A stretch of DNA of 64,000 bases from Silvibacterium acidisoli (GTDB lineage Bacteria; Acidobacteriota; Terriglobia; Terriglobales; Acidobacteriaceae). Positions within the stretch are counted from its first letter, which is position 1. Every line of letters begins with the position of its first letter. The notes beneath the pieces are model-generated. The model saw nothing but the letters and a program-made list of their open reading frames with translations, made no database searches and was not told the origin of the DNA. A program made the position numbers and the translations under genes. This document shows, piece after piece, positions 5,949 through 20,699 of this stretch. The stretch lies in contig CP085323.1 in NCBI GenBank assembly GCA_022870745.1, positions 4,154,001 to 4,218,000 of the forward strand, read 5' to 3'.

Positions 5949-5980
5949 CCCACCCATGACTGCAATCAGTCATGGGTGGG
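5949..5980. repeat. REP-like palindrome, copy 2, overlapping the tolC-type gene end
   Basis: A perfect 14-bp stem with a CAAT loop; arms begin CCCACCCATGACTG. It shares its arm with the element at 2218-2251. The stop codon and last residues (THP) of the leftward TolC-type gene lie inside it. Confidence 0.7.
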
Positions 5981-7385
5981 TGAGTGCTCCGCTCAGAGTC
6001 TTGTTTTCAAGCGCGATGGCTGCTCCCCAGGCTTCGCGCAGCCTGTCGATGTAGCCGATCTGTAGATCGAAGAGCGTGCGCTGTGAGACGAGCACCTGCG
6101 GGTAGGCCTGTGCCATAGCCTGGTATTTCTCAAGATACAACTGGTGGGCTCGTTCGGCTCGGGGGATGAGCTGCGTCCGGTATCGCTCCGCGGCGAACTT
6201 CGCAGACAGATAGTTTTGCGCCAGTTCGTTGGCCCGGCGCTGCAGCATGAGTGTCTGTCGTGTGACGTCGAGCTGTGCGGATTCCTTCTCAACCTTTGCG
6301 GACTCGATGTTGCCCTGGTTGCGATTCCACAGGGGAAGGTCGATGTTGGCGCTGGCGAAGCTTTGCGCTCCGGTTGCCTTGGGCGGAAAGCTCCCGAGCT
6401 GCTCACCGTTGTACTGTTCTCCTGCGCGGAGGGTAAGGTCGGGCATCGCTTCGCGCTTTGCGTCTCTGAGACGAGCGTCTGCAATAGCAATCTGCTGTTG
6501 TGCGCGTTGGATGGAGGGGCTGTCGCCGGCAACGTTGCCTGCCGTGGCTTCGGCATCGAGTTGCGGCAGCGCTTCGAGGTCGCCTTTGAGCGGCGCGGCA
6601 GGGAGGTCGTTGCGTCCCGCGACGATGGCCAGGGCCTGGAAGGCTGCGAGATAGCCGCGCTGCGCGCTCTCGTAGTCGACCTTTGCCTGTTCGGCTTCTA
6701 CCTCGGTTTGCAGGATATCCGGCGCATCTGCCTGTCCTACGTTCGCGAGTTGATGCACGGTAGCGACGGCTTCGAGCGCAACTCCCATGAGCTGGCGGCG
6801 TGTATCGACTGTTCGCTGCGCGGCAAGGGCGGTGTAAAAGGCTTCTTCAACATCGGCGTGTACGCGGATGCGTTGTTCTTCGACGCCGATCTCACCAGAT
6901 TTCTGCTCGGCCAGCGAGATGTTGCGGCGTAGCCCCAGCTTGCCTCCAAGGATGATCTGCTGCTCGACGTAGCCACCCTGTTCGCCTCCGCCGTAGGAGC
7001 CGCCGCGGATCTGGTCGCCCTGGTATCCGACCGACGGATTTGGATAGAGCGCTGCCTGCTTCGCCTGCGCTTGTGCGCGGCTGACTTCTGCCGCCGCCTG
7101 CTTCAGGGTGGGGTTATTTGTGTCTGCCATGGTGACGAATTCGGCGAGCTGCATGGGAGAGCGTTTGTTGACCTCGGCCAGCAGTTCGGGCACGGGGAGG
7201 TTGCTGCCGGTTTGTTGGCCGGGATTCTCGGGTTCCTGCACCGTGCTGATGGGCTGCGCGGGCGCGGCAGGTTTAGGCGCGGTTACAGTAGCCGGGCAAC
7301 CGGGCATCTGCATGCCGGCCATGCACTGCGTGTAGCCCGGCGTTGAGAAGGCGATGAGTGCGAGGGTGGATGTAAGTATTTTCAT
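5970..7385 (-). CDS. TolC/CusC-family outer-membrane efflux protein
   Basis: 471 residues with a signal peptide (cleavage near GYTQ). A mature start follows that is rich in Cys and Met (CMAGMQMPGCP), suggesting copper contact or a lipid-type N-terminus. The rest is long amphipathic helices with heptad-like Ala/Gln repeats and two structural repeats, as in trimeric outer-membrane channels. Landmarks are ALYPNPSVGYQGDQ near residue 110 and ANIDLPLWNRNQGNIESA near 345, both conserved in the metal-efflux CusC/CzcC branch. It is 16 bp downstream of the multicopper oxidase and surely co-transcribed, pointing to copper export. No RND pump lies next to it here. Its stop codon lies within a repeat element. 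Confidence 0.9.
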   Translation of the reverse strand: MKILTSTLALIAFSTPGYTQCMAGMQMPGCPATVTAPKPAAPAQPISTVQEPENPGQQTGSNLPVPELLAEVNKRSPMQLAEFVTMADTNNPTLKQAAAEVSRAQAQAKQAALYPNPSVGYQGDQIRGGSYGGGEQGGYVEQQIILGGKLGLRRNISLAEQKSGEIGVEEQRIRVHADVEEAFYTALAAQRTVDTRRQLMGVALEAVATVHQLANVGQADAPDILQTEVEAEQAKVDYESAQRGYLAAFQALAIVAGRNDLPAAPLKGDLEALPQLDAEATAGNVAGDSPSIQRAQQQIAIADARLRDAKREAMPDLTLRAGEQYNGEQLGSFPPKATGAQSFASANIDLPLWNRNQGNIESAKVEKESAQLDVTRQTLMLQRRANELAQNYLSAKFAAERYRTQLIPRAERAHQLYLEKYQAMAQAYPQVLVSQRTLFDLQIGYIDRLREAWGAAIALENKTLSGALTHP

Positions 7386-7401
7386 GGTTTCTCCTCGTGC
7401 C

Positions 7402-8799
7402 TCAGGCGTTCTTGTAGATGGGGTGATAGGGGTCGTTGGCGCGGCGTGCCTCTCGCATGCGGCCTACGACTTCGTCGTACTTATCCGGCGGCAGCACGCG
7501 GATGAAGGTCATCATGCCCTGCATGTAGCCGCTCCAGCCGCGTGCTAGGCCGTAGTTCTCGGGCCGTTCGACGGCCTGATCCATTGCCATCATGGGGCTT
7601 TCCATGAAGGCATCCTGCGGGAAATTTGGAACCGTGTTGGCGTTGGGTGCGATGCCCATCTCCGGCATGTTCATCATGCCTGCTGACATCTGTCCGTTCG
7701 TGGTTGCGGTGTCAGGATCGTTGCCGACGCCACCAAGTCCGCGTCCGGGTGCGGGGCCGTAGTCCTCGCCCATCGGCGCGCCCGGTGTTCCCTGCAGCAT
7801 GCCCATGCCGGTCTGCATGTCTCCTGGATTGGAGGTGCGCGTCATCTTTCCCACGTTCGACGACATCTGGTTCATCATGTGGTGGGGCAGATGGCAGTGC
7901 AGCATCCAGTCGCCGGGGTTGTTGGCGACGAACTCAACCGTGCGTGCCTGCGCGACGCCAACGAGGACCGTATTTCCGGGCCACCATCCTGCTTCGGGGA
8001 TGCGTCCACCTTCGGTGCCTGTTACGTGGAAGGTATGGCCATGCATGTGCATGGGGTGATGATCCATGCCGAGATTGATGAAGCGGATGCGCACGCGGTC
8101 GCCAAGCCGCGCGATCAGCGGAGTGGTAGCCGGACCGGCCTTGCCGTTAAGCAGCAGCCAGTTGTACTCCATGCTCATGGTGTTGGGCACGGTGTTCGAT
8201 GGCAGCACGGCGTACTCCTGCAGGTGGATGATAAAGTCTTTGTCGCAGTGCGGCGTGTAGGCGTCTTTGGGATGCATGATGAAGGCGCCAAGCATGCCTG
8301 CCATCTCCTGCATGGCCATGTGCGAGTGGTAGAAGTAGGTGCCCGCCTGGTGCAGGTTGAACTCATAGATGAAGCGGCCGCCGGGCATGACCGGGGGCTG
8401 GCTGATGCCGGGCTGTCCGTCGTTCTGAATGGTGTCTTCGAAGCCGTGCCAGTGGATCGATGTCGGCTCAGGCAGATGATTGTCGAAGATCACGCGGACG
8501 CGGTCTCCCTGATTGACCTGGATGGTTGGACCGGGAGCGGAGCCGTTGAAGCCCCAGAGATCGAGCGTCTTGCCGGGGAGAATCTGCTGGCGCACCACCT
8601 CGGCCGTGATGTGAAAGACCTTCACGGCGCCATCCATCGTGTAGGGCATGTCGCCGACGTCGGTCGTGATGGTGGACACATTCAATGCGTTGGAGTGTCT
8701 CGGCGTGGAGGTCTTCGACTGGGCGAGCAGCCTCGGGCCTGCGGCGAAAGCTGCGCCAAGGCCCAGTGCTCCCTGGAGAAAAGATCTGCGATTGCTCAT
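7402..8799 (-). CDS. Tat-exported multicopper oxidase, Met-rich C-terminus
   Basis: 465 residues starting with the twin-arginine signal MSNRRSFLQGALGLGAAF and a good GAGGAA ribosome site. All four copper-binding motifs are present: SIHWHGFED near residue 115, FYHSHMAMQEMAGM near 155, HHPMHMHGHTFHV near 250 and MLHCHLPHHMMNQM near 297. The protein thus has an intact type 1/2/3 copper set, as in CopA/CueO-like laccases. After the last motif a ~150-residue tail rich in Met, Gly and Pro (MGMLQGTPGAPMGED, MSAGMMNMPEMG) probably binds extra Cu(I). It likely oxidises Cu(I) in the periplasm. It sits between a Cys/Met-rich secreted protein and the TolC-type channel in one leftward unit. Confidence 0.95.
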   Translation of the reverse strand: MSNRRSFLQGALGLGAAFAAGPRLLAQSKTSTPRHSNALNVSTITTDVGDMPYTMDGAVKVFHITAEVVRQQILPGKTLDLWGFNGSAPGPTIQVNQGDRVRVIFDNHLPEPTSIHWHGFEDTIQNDGQPGISQPPVMPGGRFIYEFNLHQAGTYFYHSHMAMQEMAGMLGAFIMHPKDAYTPHCDKDFIIHLQEYAVLPSNTVPNTMSMEYNWLLLNGKAGPATTPLIARLGDRVRIRFINLGMDHHPMHMHGHTFHVTGTEGGRIPEAGWWPGNTVLVGVAQARTVEFVANNPGDWMLHCHLPHHMMNQMSSNVGKMTRTSNPGDMQTGMGMLQGTPGAPMGEDYGPAPGRGLGGVGNDPDTATTNGQMSAGMMNMPEMGIAPNANTVPNFPQDAFMESPMMAMDQAVERPENYGLARGWSGYMQGMMTFIRVLPPDKYDEVVGRMREARRANDPYHPIYKNA

Positions 8800-8878
8800 G
8801 GTTCCTCAAAGTGCTGAACGGAAAGATGACAGATGACACGCCAGGCGGCGCGCAGGTCACAGCAGCGGAGAGTGCTGA

Positions 8879-9304
8879 CTAGATTCGAAGGGATAGAGAA
8901 GAAATGGCGGACGATCGAGGCGGTATTCGCGACGGAAGTAGTTCCAGACGCCCGCTTGCTGGCAGCCGATGTGCATGCCCCGTCGCATCCGGAAACGAAG
9001 CGGCGAGCTGCAGTTCTTCTCCTGGCCGGCTTGCCTTCCACTCCGGCGACGGTGCGGAAGCGCAGTGCATGGAGCAGCTGGATGCCTTCAGGGATTGGCG
9101 CGCATGGGGTGTGTCGGACCGAGCCGACGCTGGCCCGTCATGCATCGACTGCATCGTGCAATGTTCCATGCCGGCGGAGCAGGCCTTTGAAGATGCCTGC
9201 ATGGAGCAGGATGCTCCGCATATCGAAGCCCACGAAGAGATCGTCGACAGGAATGCGACAAGTACGACAGCGAAGATGCGCCGCAGTATGGATTCCCGTG
9301 ACAT
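8879..9304 (-). CDS. Small secreted Cys/Met/His-rich protein, putative metal binder
   Basis: 141 residues with a signal peptide (MSRESILRRIFAVVLVAFLS, cleavage near SWA). The next ~60 residues are rich in Cys, Met and His: ICGASCSMQASSKACSAG, MEHCTMQSMHDG and SCSMHCASAP. This spacing has no fixed zinc-finger form but suits soft-metal binding such as Cu(I). The C-terminal third is ordinary and Ser/Pro/Arg-rich. It is the first gene of the leftward unit with the multicopper oxidase (79-bp gap) and TolC-type channel, so a periplasmic copper scavenger or chaperone is plausible. No named family is recognised. Opposite-strand frames here lack signal peptides and are less convincing. Confidence 0.65.
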   Translation of the reverse strand: MSRESILRRIFAVVLVAFLSTISSWASICGASCSMQASSKACSAGMEHCTMQSMHDGPASARSDTPHARQSLKASSCSMHCASAPSPEWKASRPGEELQLAASFPDATGHAHRLPASGRLELLPSRIPPRSSAISSLSLRI

Positions 9305-9472
9305 GCGGTAATCATAGCCTTTTTGAGCCGGACGAGAAAAGGTGCGGCCTAAACTTCAAAGGAAGCGGGGGCTTTCTGGCTGGACGGATATCGCTGATCG
9401 ATATCGACCCGCAGGATAAGGAATCGCGATCGGCTATGCCGGAAATCCGATTGCAGATCCCTCACTGCGTTC

Positions 9473-10108
9473 CTAATTTCTCTGCGCTCTCCACGGTGCA
9501 TGCTGGCCGTGTACGCCATACATACCAGACATGCCATCGGAGGTGATCTCGCCGCGGAAGGTCAGCACATCGCGCGTGTCCGTGCTGAACTCCACGTGAT
9601 TTCCGCTGATCCACCCCTGGAGGTGGCCTCTCTGATGCGGCCCGCGAAATTTTCCTGACAGGATATTGCCGTCCTGGCTGATTTCTACCTGCTTCAACGA
9701 ACTGCCCGGCTGGCTCACGTTATACGCGTAGATTGTCCATGTGCCACTGATGTTTGCCGGTTGCTGTGGCGGCGCGGGCTGAGAAGGAGGCGCCGATGCT
9801 GACTGCTGTACAGGTGGCGGGGCTGCCTGCGCGCCTTCATTCGCATCAGCCTGATCGGCGGCGAGGCCGATCTCCTGGCTTGCCTGAAAGAGGAGTTCCT
9901 TGGCACGCTGGGCGTGTCCGCCAAGATGCGAATTGTTGTCGCGCTGCGCCTCGCTGATACGCTCGAAGGCCTGCACGAGGTTGTCTTGCGCGGCTGCGAG
10001 GTTGCCGTGCCGTGAGGGGTCAACGGTAACGCTCGGAACCTGTGCGTACGTTTTGGCGCAGCACATGGCGATCCAGCCGAGCAGTGTGAGAGTTTTCAGG
10101 TGTTTCAT
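9473..10108 (-). CDS. Secreted protein, last gene of the Grr-type peptide operon
   Basis: 211 residues with a signal peptide (MKHLKTLTLLGWIAMCC, cleavage near TYAQ). An N-terminal helical part (AAQDNLVQAFERISEAQRD, residues 40-85) is followed by a Pro/Gln/Ala linker near residues 95-118. A C-terminal beta-rich domain of about 90 residues begins ISGTWTIYAYNVSQPG and contains GNILSGKFRGPHQRGHLQG; this pattern recalls small lipocalin-like secreted domains. No enzyme motif is evident. It follows the 238-residue secreted protein by 38 bp and closes a four-gene leftward unit headed by the Gly/Trp-rich precursor. A role in handling, binding or exporting the modified peptide is possible but inferred from position only. 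Confidence 0.75.
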   Translation of the reverse strand: MKHLKTLTLLGWIAMCCAKTYAQVPSVTVDPSRHGNLAAAQDNLVQAFERISEAQRDNNSHLGGHAQRAKELLFQASQEIGLAADQADANEGAQAAPPPVQQSASAPPSQPAPPQQPANISGTWTIYAYNVSQPGSSLKQVEISQDGNILSGKFRGPHQRGHLQGWISGNHVEFSTDTRDVLTFRGEITSDGMSGMYGVHGQHAPWRAQRN

Positions 10109-10146
10109 CTTTTGCCTTTCAACATAGAAAATCGAACGCTCAGTGC

Positions 10147-10863
10147 TTAGTCCCAGATCACCGTAATGATCCTGTCGTTCTCATCGAGGAGGATGGTCAT
10201 ACGGTTGGGGTTGGAGTCGATGCTGTTAATGCCCTCCTGGGCGTGAATGACGCGCAGGTTACGAGGCAGCTCCTCTTCATGGACTGCGTCGGTGGTCGCG
10301 CCGGCCGGCAGGCCTTTGCCTTTCGATAGAAAGAGCTTGCCCTCGCAGGCGGTGCAGTCTTTCGGAGGAGGAGGAGCGGCCTCGTAGCCGGGCAGCGTGT
10401 GGAGTGAAACGCTGTTCGATGCGCCATGCACACGCACTCCCTTGAAGGGATGGCCCGGCTCGATGGTAAAGACGGCCTCGATCTCCGGGTAGGGAGCCGG
10501 TGCGGTGCTGTCTTCCGGCGCCTCAGCGACCATTGCCAGGTCGAGCATTCCATCAGAGGGAACACCATGCGTCAGCGGCACGAGCTCGGCGGCCTGCCAG
10601 CCTTCGGTTGCGGCGAGAGCGCGCACACGCACGACATCCAGCTGTGGAGCATGCGTGCTGCGCATTACTTCGACGCTGGTAATCCAGAGAACGGGAGCGG
10701 TATGTGCCGGCTCGTCTTGCGAAGCGGTTGCCGATGTCTGTGCCGCCGTCTCATGGGCGGGTGGCTGGGAGGTTGTCTGGCTGCTCTGGGCCTGCGCAAT
10801 GACAGCCCCGGCGAGTAACAACTTGAGAGTCAGGAAGGCTGCGATCTTCATTCGGGTGCTCAT
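10147..10863 (-). CDS. Secreted protein, third gene of the Grr-type peptide operon
   Basis: 238 residues starting at ATG 10863, with ribosome site GAGGAAAG closely resembling that of the precursor gene. A signal peptide ends near residue 25 (VIAQAQ), and a Ser/Thr/Gln/Ala-rich linker follows. The folded part has alternating strands and helices (LWITSVEVMRSTHAP, VRVRALAATEGWQAAELVP). A pair of cysteines lies in KDCTACEGKLFLSKGKG near residue 170, and the protein ends in LLDENDRIITVIWD. No family is recognised. It lies 29 bp downstream of the radical SAM gene, so it is co-transcribed with the maturase. The two cysteines could form a disulfide or bind metal outside the cytoplasm. Confidence 0.78.
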   Translation of the reverse strand: MSTRMKIAAFLTLKLLLAGAVIAQAQSSQTTSQPPAHETAAQTSATASQDEPAHTAPVLWITSVEVMRSTHAPQLDVVRVRALAATEGWQAAELVPLTHGVPSDGMLDLAMVAEAPEDSTAPAPYPEIEAVFTIEPGHPFKGVRVHGASNSVSLHTLPGYEAAPPPPKDCTACEGKLFLSKGKGLPAGATTDAVHEEELPRNLRVIHAQEGINSIDSNPNRMTILLDENDRIITVIWD

Positions 10864-10892
10864 GATCTTTCCTCGTTCGTCAGATTTCGGAG

Positions 10893-12083
10893 CTATCGGT
10901 AATGTCCGGCGTATGCCGTCGTCTGGTTGTGTTGAGCGGCAATCACGGCGGTGGGGTCGAGATGTTCAAAGGCCGAGAGAATCAGGTCGGCGGGTGTGAT
11001 CTGCACCAGGTTGCAGAAGGAGGTCTGAGTGCTGGCGAAGGTACCGTTTTCTGAAAGCTTGTTTACGGGCGCTCCACCACCGCAGATGGAGAAGTATCCG
11101 CACTCCTGCCGGCAGGCTTCGACGCCTGCCTGGATGTCGTCGACCATGGCTTTCATCGCGGTGCTGTGCAGCATCTGTTTCAATGAGTGCCTGTGAACGT
11201 TGCCGATGAGGAAGTCGTTATATCGTTCGTTGCGATAGCCAAGCAGCTCCGGAGAAAAGCTTCCGACATTGCCCTTGCAATCGACATTCAGCATCGCGAG
11301 CGGTTCCACCTGGTCGTTGCCGGTGTCTGCTTCGGCAGGGCGGAAGATGCGCGGGATCAGCCCGTCGATCTCGCGTATGAAATTGATTCCCGGCGCCTGG
11401 CGGGAGAGCTTCCAGAAGCGCTGGAGAAAGTGATGAAAGCGCTCCCCTACCTGCGCTCGCTCCTGCTGCATCAGTTCCGAAACATGATCGCCCTCTGACT
11501 CTTCCACGTTGAAGCAGACATCGACGATCCCCGCTTCAAGGTAGAAGGCATGCAGCTCTTCAGGCTTCTCAAGCGATGCATTCGAGAGCACTGAAATTAC
11601 GTGGAATGGAATGTCTTCTGATTGCAGGAGACGTATGCCCCGCATCGCAAGATCGAAGGTGCCTTTGCCGGAGCGTGTGACGCGATTGGCATCGTGGAGC
11701 TGCTGTGGCCCATCCACGCTTACGCCTATGCTGACACCCCATTTGCGGATCAGCTCGCACCACTCTCTTGTCAGCAGTGTTCCATTCGTCTGGAACGAGT
11801 GGCGAATCATCACCTCCGCCGGGCGAAGGCTCTCGATAAGCTCGAAGGCTGCCTCATAGTAAGAGACAGGCAGAACCATCGGCTCGCCCGCGTGCCAGAT
11901 CACCGTGATCTGCTCCCCGGCGTACGGCGACTCGAAGACACGGCGAAAAGTAGCACCGATCGTCTGAAGGCTCATCCTGGAAGTGTCATCACGCGACGGC
12001 AGGTAGCAATACCGGCAACGGATATTGCAGAACGGGGTCGGCTGCAGAACGATGGTGCGAATGTGGGTGCTGGTGCGAAGCAT
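10893..12083 (-). CDS. grrM: Radical SAM/SPASM peptide maturase, GrrM type
   Basis: 396 residues. The radical SAM cluster motif CNIRCRYC is at residues 19-26 (CxxxCxxC), followed by VIWHAGEPMVLP (GGEP-like motif) near residue 62. The C-terminal SPASM domain has cysteines in LNVDCKGN (near 285), ACRQECGYFSICGGG (near 330) and TSFCNL (near 360), which would bind auxiliary 4Fe-4S clusters. The family installs cross-links in peptides with S-adenosylmethionine chemistry. GrrM/OscB-type members form three-residue cyclophanes between an aromatic ring and a nearby beta-carbon. The adjacent Gly/Trp/Asn repeat precursor, 33 bp upstream, supports this assignment strongly. A ribosome site (GAGG) precedes the ATG. 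It acts in the cytosol before export. Confidence 0.9.
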   Translation of the reverse strand: MLRTSTHIRTIVLQPTPFCNIRCRYCYLPSRDDTSRMSLQTIGATFRRVFESPYAGEQITVIWHAGEPMVLPVSYYEAAFELIESLRPAEVMIRHSFQTNGTLLTREWCELIRKWGVSIGVSVDGPQQLHDANRVTRSGKGTFDLAMRGIRLLQSEDIPFHVISVLSNASLEKPEELHAFYLEAGIVDVCFNVEESEGDHVSELMQQERAQVGERFHHFLQRFWKLSRQAPGINFIREIDGLIPRIFRPAEADTGNDQVEPLAMLNVDCKGNVGSFSPELLGYRNERYNDFLIGNVHRHSLKQMLHSTAMKAMVDDIQAGVEACRQECGYFSICGGGAPVNKLSENGTFASTQTSFCNLVQITPADLILSAFEHLDPTAVIAAQHNQTTAYAGHYR

Positions 12084-12116
12084 TTATGTTGTCCTCGTTT
12101 TTTCAGGGCCGGTGGT

Positions 12117-12515
12117 CTACCAGTTGTGCCAGAAGTTATGCCAGCCGTTGCCCCATCCACCGTTGCCCCAACCTCCGTTACCCCAGCCTCCGTTATGCCA
12201 GCCTCCGTTGCCCCATCCACCGTTATGCCAGTTGCGCCAGCCGCCATTTCGCCAGCCCCACCCGCCGCCGAAGTTGAGCCACGAAGCTAGCATCAGCTTG
12301 GGGCCGTCTTTGTCCGTGCCTGGAAGGCCGGGCTGGTCATGAAGACTCGTGGAGACTGCCTGGCGAATTTCACTGAGCCGGTCGGCCACCGGGACAGCGT
12401 TCGTGGTGGTTTCGGAGGCATGCGCCGGGACGGCTGCCAGTGCGGACGATATCCCGATGACTCCCGTCTGAAGAAGGAGTGAAATCGCCTTCGAAGTTCG
12501 CTTTGTTAAGCTCAT
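12117..12515 (-). CDS. grrA: GrrA-type Gly/Trp/Asn-rich RiPP precursor
   Basis: The start is ATG 12515, with ribosome site GAGGGAAAG six bases upstream; the open frame extends further but without such a site. The 132-residue product has a signal-peptide-like leader (SKAISLLLQTGVIGISSALA, ending AHA), a spacer with IRQAVSTSL, and a C-terminal core of about 50 residues. The core is built of short repeats: WRN, WRN, WHN, WGN, WHN, WGN, WGN, WGN, WHN and WHN, ten W-x-N triads separated mostly by GG. In the established GrrA/OscA family such aromatic-x-Asn triads are the sites of cyclophane cross-links. The product is probably modified in the cytosol by the adjacent maturase and then secreted. Its biological role is unknown. 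Confidence 0.9.
   Translation of the reverse strand: MSLTKRTSKAISLLLQTGVIGISSALAAVPAHASETTTNAVPVADRLSEIRQAVSTSLHDQPGLPGTDKDGPKLMLASWLNFGGGWGWRNGGWRNWHNGGWGNGGWHNGGWGNGGWGNGGWGNGWHNFWHNW
12123..12262 (-). repeat. Coding tandem repeats of the grrA core
   Basis: Imperfect 12-15 bp units (complement of CCTCCGTTGCCCCA and CCTCCGTTATGCCA) encode the GGWGN and GGWHN steps. They look like direct repeats on the plus strand but are in frame with the precursor gene and are not a CRISPR array or noncoding satellite. Confidence 0.8.
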
Positions 12516-12804
12516 GATCTTTCCCTCGATGCAGATCATAGGCACAGCGATGGACATCAAAAATCCGTGACTCTACACGGTTGCCAGTGTGGCGCTACAT
12601 GGCGAAGCCGTGTGGTTCCGCATGCGCCATTTGCAGGGCCGGAGCCGTTCCGAGACTGTCAAGAAATTTCTTCGAACTCTCAAGCTTTGGATCGATGGGA
12701 TAGTTTGTGCGGGAGGAAGCTTCCCCAAGATTCTTTTATTTCTGCGGAGCAAAGAAACTGTTACTCTGTTCGCGATTTGCTATCCAGCCCGCGAGCCGCT
12801 GCTT
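12516..12804. promoter_or_regulatory. Divergent intergenic region between grrA and the response regulator
   Basis: 289 bp without a supported gene separate the leftward peptide operon from the rightward response regulator, so it should hold both promoters. An open frame runs through from 12589 in phase with the regulator, but it has no recognisable protein content. I could not identify convincing -35/-10 boxes. A GGAAGCTTCC palindrome at about 12716-12725 is the only small dyad noted. Confidence 0.4.
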
Positions 12805-13488
12805 ATGAACGATCTCATCCGCGTGTTTCTTGCCGACGATCATCCGGTTGTTCGCCGAGGTTTGAAAGCCACGATCGAAGACGATCCCCGTCTGCGGGTG
12901 ATAGCCGAAGCGGTGGATGGCGACGATGCTCTGCGCCAGATCGCTGAACTCAATCCTGCGGTTGCAATCATCGATATAGATATGCCCGGTCTCAATGGAA
13001 TGGGTGTAGCCCGCGAGCTTGTGAAGCAGGGCGTCGAAACGCAGGTTATCTTCATGACCTTCCATGCGGATGAAGACCTGATGCGAGCGGCGATGGAAGT
13101 TGGCGGCAAAGGGTATCTGTTGAAGGGTAGCGAAACCGAAGAAGTCTGCGCGGCCATTCATGCTGTCTGCGCGGGACGAACCTACATCGGGTCGAAGATG
13201 GCTGCTGTGCTGCTGAACCGGAAGAAAGAGTCGTCAGGTCCTGCGCCTCTCGATCTGAAGATCCTGACGCAGACGGAGAAGAAGATCCTGCGGCTGATTG
13301 CCGATGGACTCTCGAGCAAGGAAATCGGCGATGAGCTCAAGATTCACTACCGCACAGTAGAGAATCATCGTACAAATATGTGCCGCAAGCTGGAGATCGA
13401 GGGCGCCAATGCTCTGGCTCGCTTCGCACTGCAGAACCGCGCCGCCCTTCAGGAACGGTTGTATGAGGCGCACCCCGGAACCGTGTAG
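12805..13488 (+). CDS. NarL/FixJ-family response regulator (orphan)
   Basis: Start set at ATG 12805, where the receiver domain begins (MNDLIRVFLADDHPVVRRG). The receiver has the acidic pair D11/D12, the phospho-acceptor in AIIDIDMPG (D57), the Thr/Ser of VIFMTFHADED and the Lys of GYLLKGSE. The C-terminal LuxR-type helix-turn-helix is LTQTEKKILRLIADGLSSKE ... HYRTVENHRTNMCRKL, a DNA-binding output. It is 227 residues, the normal length for this class. No histidine kinase lies next to it. It is divergent from the Grr-type operon across 289 bp and could regulate it; that is only a positional suggestion. Confidence 0.92.
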   Translation: MNDLIRVFLADDHPVVRRGLKATIEDDPRLRVIAEAVDGDDALRQIAELNPAVAIIDIDMPGLNGMGVARELVKQGVETQVIFMTFHADEDLMRAAMEVGGKGYLLKGSETEEVCAAIHAVCAGRTYIGSKMAAVLLNRKKESSGPAPLDLKILTQTEKKILRLIADGLSSKEIGDELKIHYRTVENHRTNMCRKLEIEGANALARFALQNRAALQERLYEAHPGTV

Positions 13489-14985: not shown

Positions 14986-17900
14986 CTACTGCGGAATACC
15001 GAGAGCGGTAAGTTCTGCCTGCGCTTTATTCTTGTCTCCTGCTTCCAGAGCGTCGAAAAGGCCTACCCACTCAGTGGAGCTTTGCGCGAACGCAGGACTT
15101 TCGGTGATATAGCGCTTGGTTCCGGCAAAGCTCCAGGTGCTCTTCTCAAGTTCCGCAACGTCCGTGCGGAGACGATGTCCTTCCGCGAGCGCCGCATCCC
15201 GTCTCTGGTCCGCAGACAGACAGGCGAAATCGAGAGCAGTCATCACCAGGCGCATCTGCTTGTCAGCGGTCTTTTCTCTATCAAGCGTGGCGAGCGCGGA
15301 GCAGGCTTCGAACCGGGACGTAGTCAGATGACTCTCGACAAAGTCATCGATGCCGCCGCCGGATTCGACCAGTTGAGCGTTAAGTTCGAATGCCCGGTCG
15401 AACTGAAAGAGCTTGTCATGCAGGATCCCGACTTCGAGCTCCAGAATATTTGGGGCAGAGGGGTCAAGCTTCCGGGCTTCCTCCAGATCCTGGGCCGCCT
15501 CCGCCCATTTCTCTTCTTTGATCAGGGTCTGCGCCACAACCAGCTTGGTTTTGGCGCGTTCATTCGGCTGCGCTTTCTCATCGGTCGCCGCTGTAACAGT
15601 TTTGTCCTTGTCCGTAGCGGCGTTGAATGCGTAGATGGTAAGTTCCCGGAATGAGACTTTATTGTCTTTCGCGATCTTCTGCAATTTGTGAAAGGATTCG
15701 ATCACGGCTGCAGGAAAAGTGCCGCCGCGCGCCTGTTTCAGCCATATCACCTGATCGTCGATGCCCTCATAGGGATACTCCGGTGGCCAGTCGCGGATGT
15801 AAACGTTAAAGGGAGCCTTAACGCCGCTGAAGTCGGCTGGAATGGTGAAGCGTTCGAGGATTTGCTTTTCAGACAAGGAATCGAGTTCCGCGGCTTTTTT
15901 AGCATCCTTACTGACGCCAAACCCATCCTGGTACATCCTGGACAGTAGTTTCGTGCTTGGTATGTCGCCCCAGTATGAAGCTGACTCTATGATCGGAAGC
16001 GCTTCTTTGTACCGGTGTGCTTCAAACAGCGACTGCCCGGAGACCCGATCGCTCTCAAGGATAGATTCTCTGAGGTAGATATCCCACGGATACCTGGCGA
16101 GAACGGGCGAACATACTTTTTTGACCCGGGCGATGTCATGCTGAACCAACTCCACCTTGCCTTCCGCAGCATAGAGCTTCGCTCGTTCCGAATAGTTACT
16201 GCAATACGCCGCATAGTCTTCAGAAAAGCTGGATGTATCGTTCATCACTCCAGCTTTATCGAAGCCAGCGATAGCGGAAGAGAGATAAGCGATGGCTTCT
16301 TTCCGCTGCGCGGGATCGTCCTTGAGCATTCCAGCGATTTTTGCTGAAACCTCTGCAGCGACATAGGCGAAACTGGGCGCCTTGGGGAAGGCGTTGAGCG
16401 TCGGGGCGATTGCCTCTGCGATATCTCTGTAGAATTCAAGCTCGATTGCCTGGTTGGGAAAATCGGATTGCTGCAGGGAGTTGCAGCAGGAATCGTACAG
16501 GTTCCTCAACTCGGTCGTATTGGATTGGAATAGTGTTCGGCCACTCAAGGCCCTGACCATATATTCTTTCGCCGCGATTGCATGGGCGAACTGGATATTG
16601 CTTACCTGAGTCGCCTGTAGTCCGTTGCTTTTCTTGTCGGCTTCCAGTGAATCCGTCTCTGCAAGAAATGTCTCGAAGCGAGCCATGTCCAGCAGCAAAG
16701 CCTGGTTCTTTGGATCCATCTTCAGACCTATCCGGGCGATCTCCTCAGCCTGACCTACTTTTTCTTTTGCCTGGTCATAGTCGCCTTTCACCCGCACATC
16801 CCGAGCCTGATCCATGAGACATTCGATACGTGCTTGTATCGATCGAGAATCCGAAGGCGCAGTCGTGAAGAGCTGATCGGCGAGCCGGCATGCCTGTATC
16901 GCCAGGTATTGTTTTTCAGATCCCTCGGCATCTCGCGAGCGGTTTCTGTAGGTTGTGATTGTGAAGTATCTCGTATCGATGTCTTTATCTGAATCGGACG
17001 CGGCCAATGCACGCTTAGCGAGGTTCACTGCCGTCAGAGAATGTAGCTTCTCAATGTTGGCCTCATTGTGATCCGCAGCGTATCTTGCTTCTGAATTTTC
17101 CCGCCGGCTGTAAGCAATGAGCAGGGGATAGCTGAGAGCTTCGGGATGGTGAATGTCAGCAACCTTTGTCATCTCGCGGAGCACATCCGCGCCCTTACTG
17201 TCTTCGCCGATGTCGAACAGGAACCAGGCGTAGCGAGTGCCGGTATTGATGAAGTTGGTTAGAAGCGGCTCGGGTATCGGATGATGGGAGGCAAGCTCTC
17301 CGGCAATCGCCTTTCGGCCTTCGTCGAATGCCATGCTGTAGCTTGTCAATGCCTCGTTGGCGTCTCCCACTGTTTCAAATGACTGCCCTCTCCGGTAGTC
17401 GTCGCGCGCGATATCGCTGGCCGTAACCGTCTCAGGATGGATGTGGTACATGTCCATCTGGTAGCCGGCCAGCGTTTTCATCAGCGCCGATTCGAGATCA
17501 CTTGCTCCGACCACACCTTTGTAACGCTGGACGGTGTCGCTCACGTCCTTCAGCACCGCGGCGGTGCGGCGTACCTCGCTTTGTGCTGCATCTCTCTGCT
17601 GCTTGGCCTCATCGCGTGCCTTCGAGGCCTCGGCACTCTCGGCGACCAGATTTGCCTTTGTTTCCTTCAGTCTTTGAATCGAGCGGTAGTCCAATATGCC
17701 CAGCAGAACAAATATCGCGAGCGCTATGGCGAGGCCGGCGACAAAGCCGCGCAGGCGATTGCGCTCGGTTATCTCCTGCTGCCGTGCGGTCTCGAGGCGT
17801 TGTGCTTCTGCCTCGCGGCTTGCGGTGAGAAAAGACCGCACCTGCTCAAACTGACCACCCTGGCGCTTTACCCATGCCGGATTCGGCGAGGCAGATTCCC

Positions 17901-19254
17901 ACCATGCGGCAAGGTTCTGGAGCTCCAGGCCGACCAGCAGGTCGCCTTCACGCTTCGCATACCTTTCCTCTGCAGCGGCCAGGCGTCTCCAGGCTGCGAC
18001 AGCGCGTGCCTCGTTCTCCAGCCATGCGCGCAGGGGCGACCATTGGCGGATGAGGCTCTCATGGCTGATGTCGACGATGACCTCATCGGAAAGAACCTGC
18101 TCCGATGTCCTTAGAAAGTTACAGTCCGAAGCGCTGAACGCTTCAACTATGGCGGTAACATCGCTGCGGTCTCCTGTCACCTCGACGAGTTCGAGAAAGC
18201 GGCAGGGCCGGCGAACTGCCGCAGCCACCCCGGTGCCACTTACCAGCGAGCGAAAGACTGTTTCAACATTGCGGATTCGTGCTGCGCCAAGAGTCGAGAG
18301 GATCTCCTCTCCGTGGGCGTCAACCGCTCCTGAAAGGCCGCCCAGACTGTCGTAGTCGGAGAGTCTCAGCACTACGGCGCTCCCGCCGGACTCGCGCGCG
18401 GCGCGCGCCCAGAGCCGGTTGAGCACATGCTGCATGAGGGGAAGCTGGTCTGCCCGGCGAGCGAGCTTCTCGGCCTGGTCGGCCCCGGGATCTTCAATCT
18501 CCCACGAAGCGAAGCTGCCGAGGTCATTCAACAACCTGTTCACGAGAGCCGGTTCGACGGTAAAACCCATCACACCGGCTGGACCTTCAATCGCCTCGCG
18601 GCATTCGTCGCGCGTCATTCTCGGAGTGAGGTAGAGCCCGGCATTGATCTTTTCGGCGAGGCCGGGCATCAGCGCGGAAGCGCCGAGAAACTCAGATCGC
18701 ATCGTCACCACGATGTGAATATCGATGCCTGCCAGCGTCGATGATTCAAGCAACAGCGAGACGAAGGCCTCGGCTTCTTCCTGGCGAGCGTAGTTACCGT
18801 AACGGAACAGCTCTTCAAACTGGTCGACGAGGAGCAGCAGGTTAGTGCCGCGCCCCAACTTGCTTCCGGCAACCCACTCCGCGAGAGAACGCGGACCACG
18901 GCGAAGAAAAGAGGCGAGAAGATCTATTGCCGCAGCTTCCGGAGGGTGTTCTTCAGTCGCAGTCAGCAAAGCGGCTGCGAGATTGCGGAGTGGATGACTG
19001 CCGGGATGAAAGTCTACAACCGTCCAGCGCGAGCCGGCCCACGGATGAAGCCCTAGATCCAACGCATCCAGAAGACCAGTCCGGACCAGCGAAGACTTGC
19101 CGCTGCCGGATGATCCGAGCACGGCAAGAAAACGTGTGGCCGCGAGTTGGTTCACCATGGCGTCGACACAACCATCCCTGCCAAAGAAGACGTCAGATTC
19201 TTCGCGGGTGAAGGCTCGCAGCCCAGGATAGGGAAGTCGTGCTGTCGCAGTCAT
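14986..19254 (-). CDS. STAND NTPase (nSTAND1-like) with membrane segment and TPR-like repeats
   Basis: A 1422-residue signalling ATPase. The N-terminus YPGLRAFTREESDVFFGRD is the hallmark entry of nSTAND1 proteins. Walker A is GSSGSGKSS at 47-55 and Walker B NLLLLVDQFEE near 138-148. A winged-helix-like part with VIVDISHESLIRQW follows near residue 395. A single membrane segment (GFVAGLAIALAIFVLLGIL, about 502-520) leads into a charged coiled coil (KARDEAKQQRDAAQSEVRR). The C-terminal ~850 residues are alpha-helical, with a Sel1-like YQDGFGVSKDAKKAAEL near 1105 and a TPR-like segment near 1240, the probable sensor. Its ATG overlaps the stop of the TIR gene by four bases, so the two are translationally coupled. 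STAND NTPases oligomerise on ligand binding; here it probably activates the TIR partner. Confidence 0.9.
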   Translation of the reverse strand: MTATARLPYPGLRAFTREESDVFFGRDGCVDAMVNQLAATRFLAVLGSSGSGKSSLVRTGLLDALDLGLHPWAGSRWTVVDFHPGSHPLRNLAAALLTATEEHPPEAAAIDLLASFLRRGPRSLAEWVAGSKLGRGTNLLLLVDQFEELFRYGNYARQEEAEAFVSLLLESSTLAGIDIHIVVTMRSEFLGASALMPGLAEKINAGLYLTPRMTRDECREAIEGPAGVMGFTVEPALVNRLLNDLGSFASWEIEDPGADQAEKLARRADQLPLMQHVLNRLWARAARESGGSAVVLRLSDYDSLGGLSGAVDAHGEEILSTLGAARIRNVETVFRSLVSGTGVAAAVRRPCRFLELVEVTGDRSDVTAIVEAFSASDCNFLRTSEQVLSDEVIVDISHESLIRQWSPLRAWLENEARAVAAWRRLAAAEERYAKREGDLLVGLELQNLAAWWESASPNPAWVKRQGGQFEQVRSFLTASREAEAQRLETARQQEITERNRLRGFVAGLAIALAIFVLLGILDYRSIQRLKETKANLVAESAEASKARDEAKQQRDAAQSEVRRTAAVLKDVSDTVQRYKGVVGASDLESALMKTLAGYQMDMYHIHPETVTASDIARDDYRRGQSFETVGDANEALTSYSMAFDEGRKAIAGELASHHPIPEPLLTNFINTGTRYAWFLFDIGEDSKGADVLREMTKVADIHHPEALSYPLLIAYSRRENSEARYAADHNEANIEKLHSLTAVNLAKRALAASDSDKDIDTRYFTITTYRNRSRDAEGSEKQYLAIQACRLADQLFTTAPSDSRSIQARIECLMDQARDVRVKGDYDQAKEKVGQAEEIARIGLKMDPKNQALLLDMARFETFLAETDSLEADKKSNGLQATQVSNIQFAHAIAAKEYMVRALSGRTLFQSNTTELRNLYDSCCNSLQQSDFPNQAIELEFYRDIAEAIAPTLNAFPKAPSFAYVAAEVSAKIAGMLKDDPAQRKEAIAYLSSAIAGFDKAGVMNDTSSFSEDYAAYCSNYSERAKLYAAEGKVELVQHDIARVKKVCSPVLARYPWDIYLRESILESDRVSGQSLFEAHRYKEALPIIESASYWGDIPSTKLLSRMYQDGFGVSKDAKKAAELDSLSEKQILERFTIPADFSGVKAPFNVYIRDWPPEYPYEGIDDQVIWLKQARGGTFPAAVIESFHKLQKIAKDNKVSFRELTIYAFNAATDKDKTVTAATDEKAQPNERAKTKLVVAQTLIKEEKWAEAAQDLEEARKLDPSAPNILELEVGILHDKLFQFDRAFELNAQLVESGGGIDDFVESHLTTSRFEACSALATLDREKTADKQMRLVMTALDFACLSADQRRDAALAEGHRLRTDVAELEKSTWSFAGTKRYITESPAFAQSSTEWVGLFDALEAGDKNKAQAELTALGIPQ

Positions 19255-20699
19255 TCCGCCAACTCCTCGAGCAGTTCACGAATCGCGGTCATGTCCCATC
19301 CCTGGGGGCAATTGATCGTATGCGCGTTGGGAAACGTCATCCTGATATCGGGCTTCGGCGAGGGCGGTCCACTGCAGATCGCAAGCAGTTTAGGATCTGC
19401 GTCGCGGCGAGGCTTCACCTTGCCAAAGAACCGTAACTGGCTTCGGATCCAGTCCTGCGTGGTGTCGCCGTAGATGAAGAGCAGTACATCGCAGTCGGTA
19501 AGATTTTCGGCGAGATCTTTGCGATTGGCTTCGGCTGAAGCTCCAGTGATCGGCAGGAATGTCGGCAGTGCCCGCCGCAGGCATTCCCGTTCGATCTCCC
19601 TGGCTATGGCCAGGTCGCTGTCGTCCGCATTGATGAAGACGGTCGGGGACTGCGATTTGACGGGAATTTTGCCCGGTGCCCGCACCCGCTTGCGAACGCA
19701 GCTAAGTACCTGTCCCTTAAACGCCTCAAGACCGGAGGAGATAACCGTTTCCGCCGTAGCAAGGCTCTTGTAAGCCGGATCCGTGATCTGGTCGAGTGCA
19801 AGCTCGGGGTGACGCCATTGCATGATCTCGACCCCGCAGGACTTTGCGGTGTTGTACTGGAACTGCGTATATCCGGGTGGTAAGTCGGGTGGAATCCGTC
19901 CGATCCGGCGGCCAAGAAGCTGCACGAAGAGATCTGCCTGGGCCAGATCCTGTCGTACGGCGGCCATGAAAGCCTCGCCCCCCTGAGGATAGCCGGTCCT
20001 GGGCCTTATCTCGATCTCGTCACCGTACTGGCTCAGGTAGCGGCGAAGCTGGTCGGCTTCTTCTTCCACGTCGTCCGTGGTCTGAGCGATCAGGACGGTC
20101 TTTTTCTTCCGCGGAGTTTCATCGTTTTCTACTGGCTTCGTTGTAAGTGGTTTAAGATCGCCCGAGTAGCGCATCTGCAGTAACTTCTCTTTGATGTCGC
20201 AGGCAAGGCTGTTTACTAATATTGAAAACTCCTGAGCGTCGAATACGGGCGAGAGCGCCATGGGTTTTCGCATCGCTCCGCCTGTCTTCCAGAAGGCAAG
20301 GCGCACCTGGTCGTCGAGTGGGGCCGGATATCTCTCGTTGGAGCTTAAGGGCAGGTATTCGATTGCGAATAGTCTTGAAAGGTCAGGGGCGCAGTTTGCG
20401 AAAGCTTCCAGTTCCTGAAGTGTCCAGCTGCGAGTGGCATAGCTCGGAGAAGCTACACCCAAAAAGAGCGCGGATTTTTTGACTGCTGAAAGAAACTCGG
20501 GGAGATGGAAGTTTGCTCCCACCGCCTGGCTTGCGAAGAAGACTTTCAGCGTGTCCATGCCGCCGAGGCGCTGACGAAGCGCGGGTTCGAGTAGATGAAC
20601 GAACTGAGTGACCCAGCCAGGTTGACTGTCAGGGGCGCTGTCGTCGATGTGCGCGTAGCTTACAAAAAGATCGTAGTCAAACCCCTGAGCGATTGCCAT
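19251..20699 (-). CDS. Multi-module TIR-domain protein
   Basis: 482 residues in three parts. Residues 1-150 are a TIR domain: the opening strand DYDLFVSYAHIDD, the motif VKKSALFLGVASPSYATRSW, and ELEAF with a candidate catalytic glutamate at E96. TIR domains of this kind cleave NAD+ in bacterial immunity. Residues ~200-340 (KTVLIAQTTDDVEEEADQL, QADLFVQLLGRRIG) look like the DUF4062/TIR-like fold that often precedes such proteins. Residues ~350-482 (PTVFINADDSDLAIAREIE, DCDVLLFIYGDTTQDWIRSQ) form a third TIR-like alpha-beta module. It is the first gene of a two-gene unit with the STAND NTPase (ATGA overlap). The likely role is effector or signal transducer in an abortive-infection type response. 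Confidence 0.87.
   Translation of the reverse strand: MAIAQGFDYDLFVSYAHIDDSAPDSQPGWVTQFVHLLEPALRQRLGGMDTLKVFFASQAVGANFHLPEFLSAVKKSALFLGVASPSYATRSWTLQELEAFANCAPDLSRLFAIEYLPLSSNERYPAPLDDQVRLAFWKTGGAMRKPMALSPVFDAQEFSILVNSLACDIKEKLLQMRYSGDLKPLTTKPVENDETPRKKKTVLIAQTTDDVEEEADQLRRYLSQYGDEIEIRPRTGYPQGGEAFMAAVRQDLAQADLFVQLLGRRIGRIPPDLPPGYTQFQYNTAKSCGVEIMQWRHPELALDQITDPAYKSLATAETVISSGLEAFKGQVLSCVRKRVRAPGKIPVKSQSPTVFINADDSDLAIAREIERECLRRALPTFLPITGASAEANRKDLAENLTDCDVLLFIYGDTTQDWIRSQLRFFGKVKPRRDADPKLLAICSGPPSPKPDIRMTFPNAHTINCPQGWDMTAIRELLEELAE

Follow-up and report, generated by a model that had tools for sequence, protein, structure and literature searches.

The window studied here, a stretch of 64,000 nucleotides from the genome of Silvibacterium acidisoli (contig CP085323.1, positions 4,154,001 to 4,218,000), carries what is, by analogy, a triceptide system of the GrrM/OscB type, a system whose chemistry is known from relatives and whose hosts reach well beyond the cyanobacteria. 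What is new here is a fixed exported partner, P0003, which makes the locus a three-gene, non-cyanobacterial variant. The first-pass annotation of this DNA had described a two-gene pair of precursor and maturase from an acidobacterium. Both open frames are present on the minus strand and the acidobacterial source is supported, but genes for two more exported proteins follow, and one of these, P0003, is fixed in the clade to which the maturase belongs.

The precursor P0001 is encoded at 12117..12515 on the minus strand, with the ATG beginning at 12515 and the stop codon ending at 12117, and has 132 amino acids. By eye it carries the Sec-type signal that had been proposed for it, which covers approximately residues 1–33 with a cleavage site between AHA and SE. 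The leader contains the motif VADRLSEIR and the C-terminus reads NFWHNW. The core, residues 79–132, is encoded together with the stop at 12117..12281 (minus strand) and contains eleven W-x-N triads (W79LN, W88RN, W93RN, W96HN, W101GN, W106HN, W111GN, W116GN, W121GN, W125HN and W129HN) and two further Trp. The earlier reading had counted ten triads, overlooking the WLN at residues 79–81, a site occupied by WLN, WPN or WMN in the nearest relatives; it had also stated that Trp is used at every site, which is true of all eleven. Each of the 11 Asn of the core ends a W-x-N triad and 11 of the 13 core Trp start one, the exceptions being W86 and the last residue, W132. The core contains no Cys. A triceptide is recognised by a core that carries aromatic-x-Asn triads and whose gene adjoins that of a maturase, and P0001 presents 11 W-x-N triads with a gap of 33 bases between its stop and the maturase gene.

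When the 54-residue core was shuffled 100,000 times the number of triads averaged 2.6 with a maximum of 8, and no shuffle contained eleven; 50,000 shuffles of the whole protein averaged 1.2 and reached 6 at most. The Gly codons of the triad repeats are mixed (GGC, GGA, GGT, GGG), and the repeats are therefore unlike a fresh DNA duplication. Against the GrrA/OscA1 model TIGR04260 the precursor scores 29.9 bits, 1.1 bits short of the cut-off of 31 that separates it from GrrA, and we therefore refer to it as GrrA-like rather than as a formal member. Seven sister precursors of the clade were compared with the same model; five pass (57.0, 59.4, 37.5, 41.7 and 59.9 bits), one is a near miss (L021, 30.5 bits) and one gives no match (L028). 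The proposal of a GrrA/GrrM family pair consequently stands for the maturase, which exceeds its family cut-off, but falls short for the precursor.

The maturase P0002 (10893..12083, minus strand; 396 amino acids) belongs to the GrrM/OscB subfamily of radical SAM/SPASM enzymes. As had been predicted, it matches TIGR04261 (GrrM/OscB), scoring 419.4 bits where the cut-off is 310, while the remaining 24 models listed, out of 67 matching P0002, all stay under their own cut-offs. The second-best maturase model is AmcB (NF041718), at 309 bits against a cut-off of 425, and the sulfatase maturase model reaches 172 bits against a cut-off of 349; the grouping with sulfatase-maturing enzymes that the first-pass annotation had named as evidence against its reading was not seen in these scores. 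On the same family scores assignments of P0002 as a sulfatase maturase, as a thioether enzyme or as a member of AmcB were all rejected. The Pfam Radical_SAM model passes with 73.3 bits (threshold 29.5), and the Pfam SPASM model (PF13186) fails with 18.0 against a gathering score of 21.5 (E 0.0036, residues 267–328). The radical SAM motif CxxxCxxC is made up of C19, C23 and C26, and the C-terminal cysteines are C324, C328, C334 and C357. In an alignment of 74 maturases the radical SAM cysteines are kept in every row; of the four C-terminal ones, the first and last are kept in 73 rows and the middle two in all 74. Both sets are common to all five cyanobacterial rows.

The window genome contains a single GrrM/OscB gene above the TIGR04261 cut-off; among 14 control genomes, nine gave a match under the cut-off and none a match above it. 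Ten further maturases that we scanned all pass the GrrM/OscB cut-off and eight of them come from Pseudomonadota, Planctomycetota and Acidobacteriota, so that a GrrM outside the cyanobacteria is not unusual. Five maturases of the window's clade score 401–419 bits, lower than the 561 and 586 bits of two cyanobacterial GrrM. The AmcB cut-off is missed not only by P0002 but by ten others scanned, among them the maturases of the acidobacterial loci L059 and L063. In these two GrrM-like loci and in L058 the W-x-N triads of the core follow one another almost without a break (W-x-N-W-x-N), and at a guess these cores may be AmcA-like; P0003 is absent from all three. The review PMC11002830 describes OscB as linking C7 of Trp to C-beta of either Asn or Asp, and C4 of Phe to C-beta of Asn. 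Because of this published chemistry and the homology between the enzymes, cyclophanes are likely at the triads of the window.

To place the maturase among its relatives we used both the class and a wider set of species genomes. A relative at E ≤ 1e-40 is present in 10 of 299 class genomes, the window's own included, and at this threshold none was found in the same-genus genome G087. The species-genome scan gave 115 maturase relatives, narrowed down to the best 80 loci; the loci found lend no support to a mainly cyanobacterial family, and since the query was non-cyanobacterial and only the best 80 of 115 relatives were taken, the scan is no measure of abundance. In preparing the maturase set, L014, L015 and L018–L020 were treated as duplicates of L022, L023, L087, L059 and L063 because their contigs are equally long, the partial L086 was left out, and the in-frame stops of L044, L080 and L084 were masked as X. 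From eleven Vibrio loci (27–28% identity) only L088 entered the set; it was taken out before the tree of 73 maturases was built and retained in the 74-row cysteine count. In that tree the window falls within a set of 15 members with an SH-aLRT support of 98, composed of Acidobacteriota and Pseudomonadota (Luteibacter, Rhodospirillales and other alphaproteobacterial MAGs). A more careful tree of 20 rows supports the clade at 89/85 and groups its six acidobacterial rows at 84/90. Each of the 15 members has a W-x-N precursor immediately ahead of its maturase.

Precursors were scanned for at 70 loci, and our filter returned a candidate in 40 and none in 30. We tabulated 30 cores, namely 27 of the 40 candidates together with L012, L013 and the window, the other 13 candidates being untabulated; only the second half of each open frame entered the triad count. 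Among the 15 precursors of the clade, 7–12 aromatic-x-Asn triads are retained while linkers and middle residues vary; Trp heads 6–12 of the triads, and Phe heads a single one in only L028 and L031. The acidobacterial members and Luteibacter share NFWHNW as the core end, and in the middle position of their triads Gly tends to take turns with His or Arg. A simple pattern detects a VADRLSEIR-like leader motif in 13 of the 15 rows, and by eye the other two read VAQRLQAIR (L025) and VARRLQAIR (L026). One locus, L030, has two different W-x-N precursors in tandem (6791–7462 and 7559–7972) ahead of a single maturase, and the open frame at 6791–7462 was left out of the count. Like GrrA/GrrM, the window has a signal-bearing precursor with a Gly-rich aromatic-x-Asn core directly upstream of its maturase. 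Unlike the five cyanobacterial loci in which we found a precursor (L044, L046, L051, L054 and L060), which are Phe-rich with 7–9 Phe triads, 1–3 Trp triads and no more than one Tyr triad, the window has a Trp-only core. Trp-only cores also occur beyond its clade, in L037, L039, L058, L059, L063, L071 and L082, and such a core is therefore not special to the window.

The third gene, P0003, lies at 10147..10863 on the minus strand, starts 29 bases past the maturase and encodes an exported protein of 238 amino acids. Of 89 loci examined, 16 have a homologue downstream of the maturase, or 14 once two duplicates are discounted, and these loci together with the window are exactly the 15-member maturase clade. 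The search also covered the rows dropped from the maturase set, and the other 73 loci, a number that therefore includes duplicates and some short-flank loci, gave no homologue at E ≤ 1e-3, and the third gene is among the features that set the window apart from the cyanobacterial GrrA/GrrM loci, in which it was not found. When neighbouring open frames were clustered blind to function, P0003 emerged as the most shared same-strand neighbour after the precursor, in a cluster of 14 loci including the window; L024 was missed through a long start choice. The same clustering gave another shared neighbour, found near other GrrM-like maturases in 11 loci with lengths of 265–610 amino acids, whose member in L016 (4901–5773) has no Pfam match.

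Whole genomes gave the same picture. In the class, P0003 is found in 5 of 299 genomes, which are the five with the closest maturases; in one of these, G250, the gene is split across two contigs. Among 16 chosen whole genomes it is present in all 10 clade genomes and in none of the six others. For a test independent of the maturase, P0003 alone was used as query against one alphaproteobacterial order (43 genomes) and the Luteibacter family (147 genomes), and five new full-length homologues were recovered (G395, G409, G410, G417 and G512). In three cases the adjoining maturase match is unbroken (60, 51 and 50% identity), in G410 it is broken into two pieces, and in G395, at a contig edge with no room beyond, it covers the last 27 residues of the maturase (E 7e-4). 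All but the G395 homologue have both a maturase and an upstream W-x-N precursor. No maturase stands on the 7.6-kb contig that holds a weak partial relative in G393 (91 amino acids, E 6e-10). Distance matrices of the maturase and P0003 from 14 members agree (r 0.92, with none of 5,000 permutations as high), as is expected for genes that travel together, and shared ancestry alone would give the same agreement. Among the members examined, P0003 is a fixed exported partner of this maturase clade.

The predicted model of P0003 (mean pLDDT 76.6) has two domains. Signal and linker occupy residues 1–50, where pLDDT is under 50, followed by a beta domain at approximately 52–158 and a C-terminal domain at approximately 165–238. 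The best Foldseek match in the PDB is the elastase inhibitor AFUEI (probability 0.98, E 0.22), and the next matches are several potato-inhibitor-I proteins, CI2 among them. With VIA-align, 56 of the 68 residues of AFUEI superpose on the C-terminal domain (rmsd 1.8 Å, Z 6.6), where according to the tool a Z below 8 may reflect only a common arrangement; the top row of that search (Z 6.7) falls on the N-terminal rather than the C-terminal domain. The Pfam I78 model (PF11720) matches three of the 14 family members over the same C-terminal stretch, with 18.0, 17.8 and 14.5 bits against a gathering score of 23.6 (E 0.0031, 0.0036 and 0.037), two of them being the close relatives L012 and L013. The window P0003 gave no I78 match, either whole or as its C-terminal 79 residues alone, and a PDB profile search with the P0003 alignment returned no inhibitor, its one match being irrelevant (E 4.6). 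A count of I78 relatives gave none in 80 genomes of the phylum, and is uninformative because the 14 control genomes gave none either. On the predicted structure, the C-terminal domain probably has the I78/potato-inhibitor-I fold. A loop stretch of the domain presumably corresponds to the reactive-bond site of potato-I inhibitors, and this stretch varies across the P0003 family. P0003 differs from AFUEI and CI2 in this variable loop, in staying below the Pfam I78 cut-off, and in placing a domain of putative inhibitory activity behind a beta domain in the same protein. The beta domain, also when folded alone, gave no confident fold match; NigD-like and similar Bacteroidales proteins match it at Z 5.3 to 6.7, matches too weak to count as evidence of kinship. 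The signal region of P0003 shows a weak CopL match (E 0.052).

A second exported protein, P0004 (9473..10108, minus strand; 211 amino acids), occurs at full length only in the acidobacterial relatives. Its two halves are also found apart, and since 27 of 299 class genomes match it, often over a single half, it was rejected as a second fixed partner. Across the nine Pseudomonadota clade loci it is found only in L024, as a 93-residue piece approximately 4 kb away on the other strand. Upstream, P0005, a LuxR-type response regulator (12805..13488, plus strand), diverges from the precursor at a distance of 289 bases. Four acidobacterial relatives have a sensor kinase of approximately 1,000 amino acids between precursor and regulator, which in L013 (7814–10792) shows propeller, Y_Y_Y, HisKA_3 and HATPase domains. 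The kinase is missing from the window at 12516–12804 and the regulator is apparently an orphan; the best relative of the kinase in the window genome is 41% identical and located elsewhere. A promoter scan of 9300–12900 found none, and the three terminator-like sites in the same interval compare with a chance expectation of 3.5. The precursor and P0003 have a nearly identical ribosome-site sequence, CGAGG(G)AAAGATC, directly before the ATG (12516–12528 and 10864–10875, minus strand). Just downstream of the operon, 5970–9304 (minus strand) encodes a multicopper oxidase, an outer-membrane efflux protein and, by eye, a small Cys/Met/His-rich exported protein with no Pfam match. Together the three look like a copper-resistance set. 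A copper link of the operon, to which the oxidase and the weak CopL match might point, was not adopted; in the relative L013 the genes downstream are different ones. At 14986–20699 (minus strand) an nSTAND1 NTPase with DUF2610 and an adjacent TIR_2/DUF4062 protein, with frames overlapping by four bases, are possibly a defence pair.

We think it probable that the locus is a triceptide-type RiPP operon whose product acts with an exported partner. P0001 would be made with its Sec-type signal, and the conserved VADRLSEIR probably docks the maturase. In the cytoplasm P0002 would then join Trp to the C-beta of Asn in the W-x-N triads, up to eleven times, with a loss of 2 H per cross-link if it follows the published OscB chemistry. 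The modified peptide would leave by the Sec route and lose its signal, giving a product of approximately 99 residues unless it is trimmed further. Outside the cytoplasm it may work together with P0003, as their co-occurrence and the predicted fold suggest, and the likeliest task of P0003 would be the inhibition of an envelope protease, by which the peptide would be protected or kept under control, or else binding of the peptide itself. In Acidobacteriaceae the neighbourhood suggests that the opposite LuxR-type response regulator may control the operon.

How many triads are closed bears on the nature of the product. If only a few of the eleven were cross-linked, the rest would form a Gly/Trp/Asn-rich tail and the product would be a partly stapled structural or surface-binding polypeptide. 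The triads do vary in spacing and in their middle residue (L, R, H or G), and the enzymes of this clade may not accept every site; yet the placement of every core Asn in a triad and the retention of 7–12 triads in 15 precursors despite changing linkers favour use of the sites, while falling short of proof, and we regard partial stapling as unlikely. Far less probable, to the point that we give it little weight, is that P0002 makes another link (a thioether, a C–N bond or an epimerisation) or acts on an enzyme, for instance as a sulfatase maturase. Enzymes of these kinds belong to the same radical SAM/SPASM superfamily as P0002, and the solved structures closest to it by sequence are anaerobic sulfatase maturases, but its scores for those families lie far under the cut-offs, the core offers no Cys, and every member of the clade has a W-x-N precursor immediately upstream.

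The role of P0003 is more evenly balanced. It could be a chaperone, an anchor or an immunity-like partner that binds the exported peptide, with the I78-like domain serving only as a scaffold, and the I78 scores below cut-off, the varying loop region and the larger N-terminal beta domain with no confident match all agree with this; set against it, nearly every structure listed as matching the C-terminal domain is an inhibitor, and these inhibitors share a single fold. We place this alternative slightly behind an even chance. The boldest version of the inhibitor reading is a three-gene triceptide lineage, spread over Acidobacteriota and Pseudomonadota, whose secreted polypeptide would be fully Trp-stapled and tied obligately to an exported serine-protease-inhibitor-like partner of its own, a proposal that we put forward tentatively and consider rather doubtful. 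If it were true, a protease inhibitor would be a dedicated component of a RiPP system and would give a first handle on how Grr-type triceptides act outside the cell.

We know of no established role for Grr-type triceptides. Triceptide clusters have been counted in Pseudomonas viridiflava (PMC13387001, excerpts), and excerpts of PMC10885120 mention triceptides and cyclophanes in the reference list only. Among the openly licensed papers listed, titles and abstract beginnings showed no P0003-like partner and no acidobacterial GrrA, which is weak evidence of absence. An exported partner belonging to one branch of the triceptides offers a genetic and biochemical handle for asking whether such a protein binds, protects or processes the stapled peptide. 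The core itself, in which the eleven Trp-x-Asn sites are the only aromatic-x-Asn ones, would provide a clean test of how far the stapling of a single maturase can reach.
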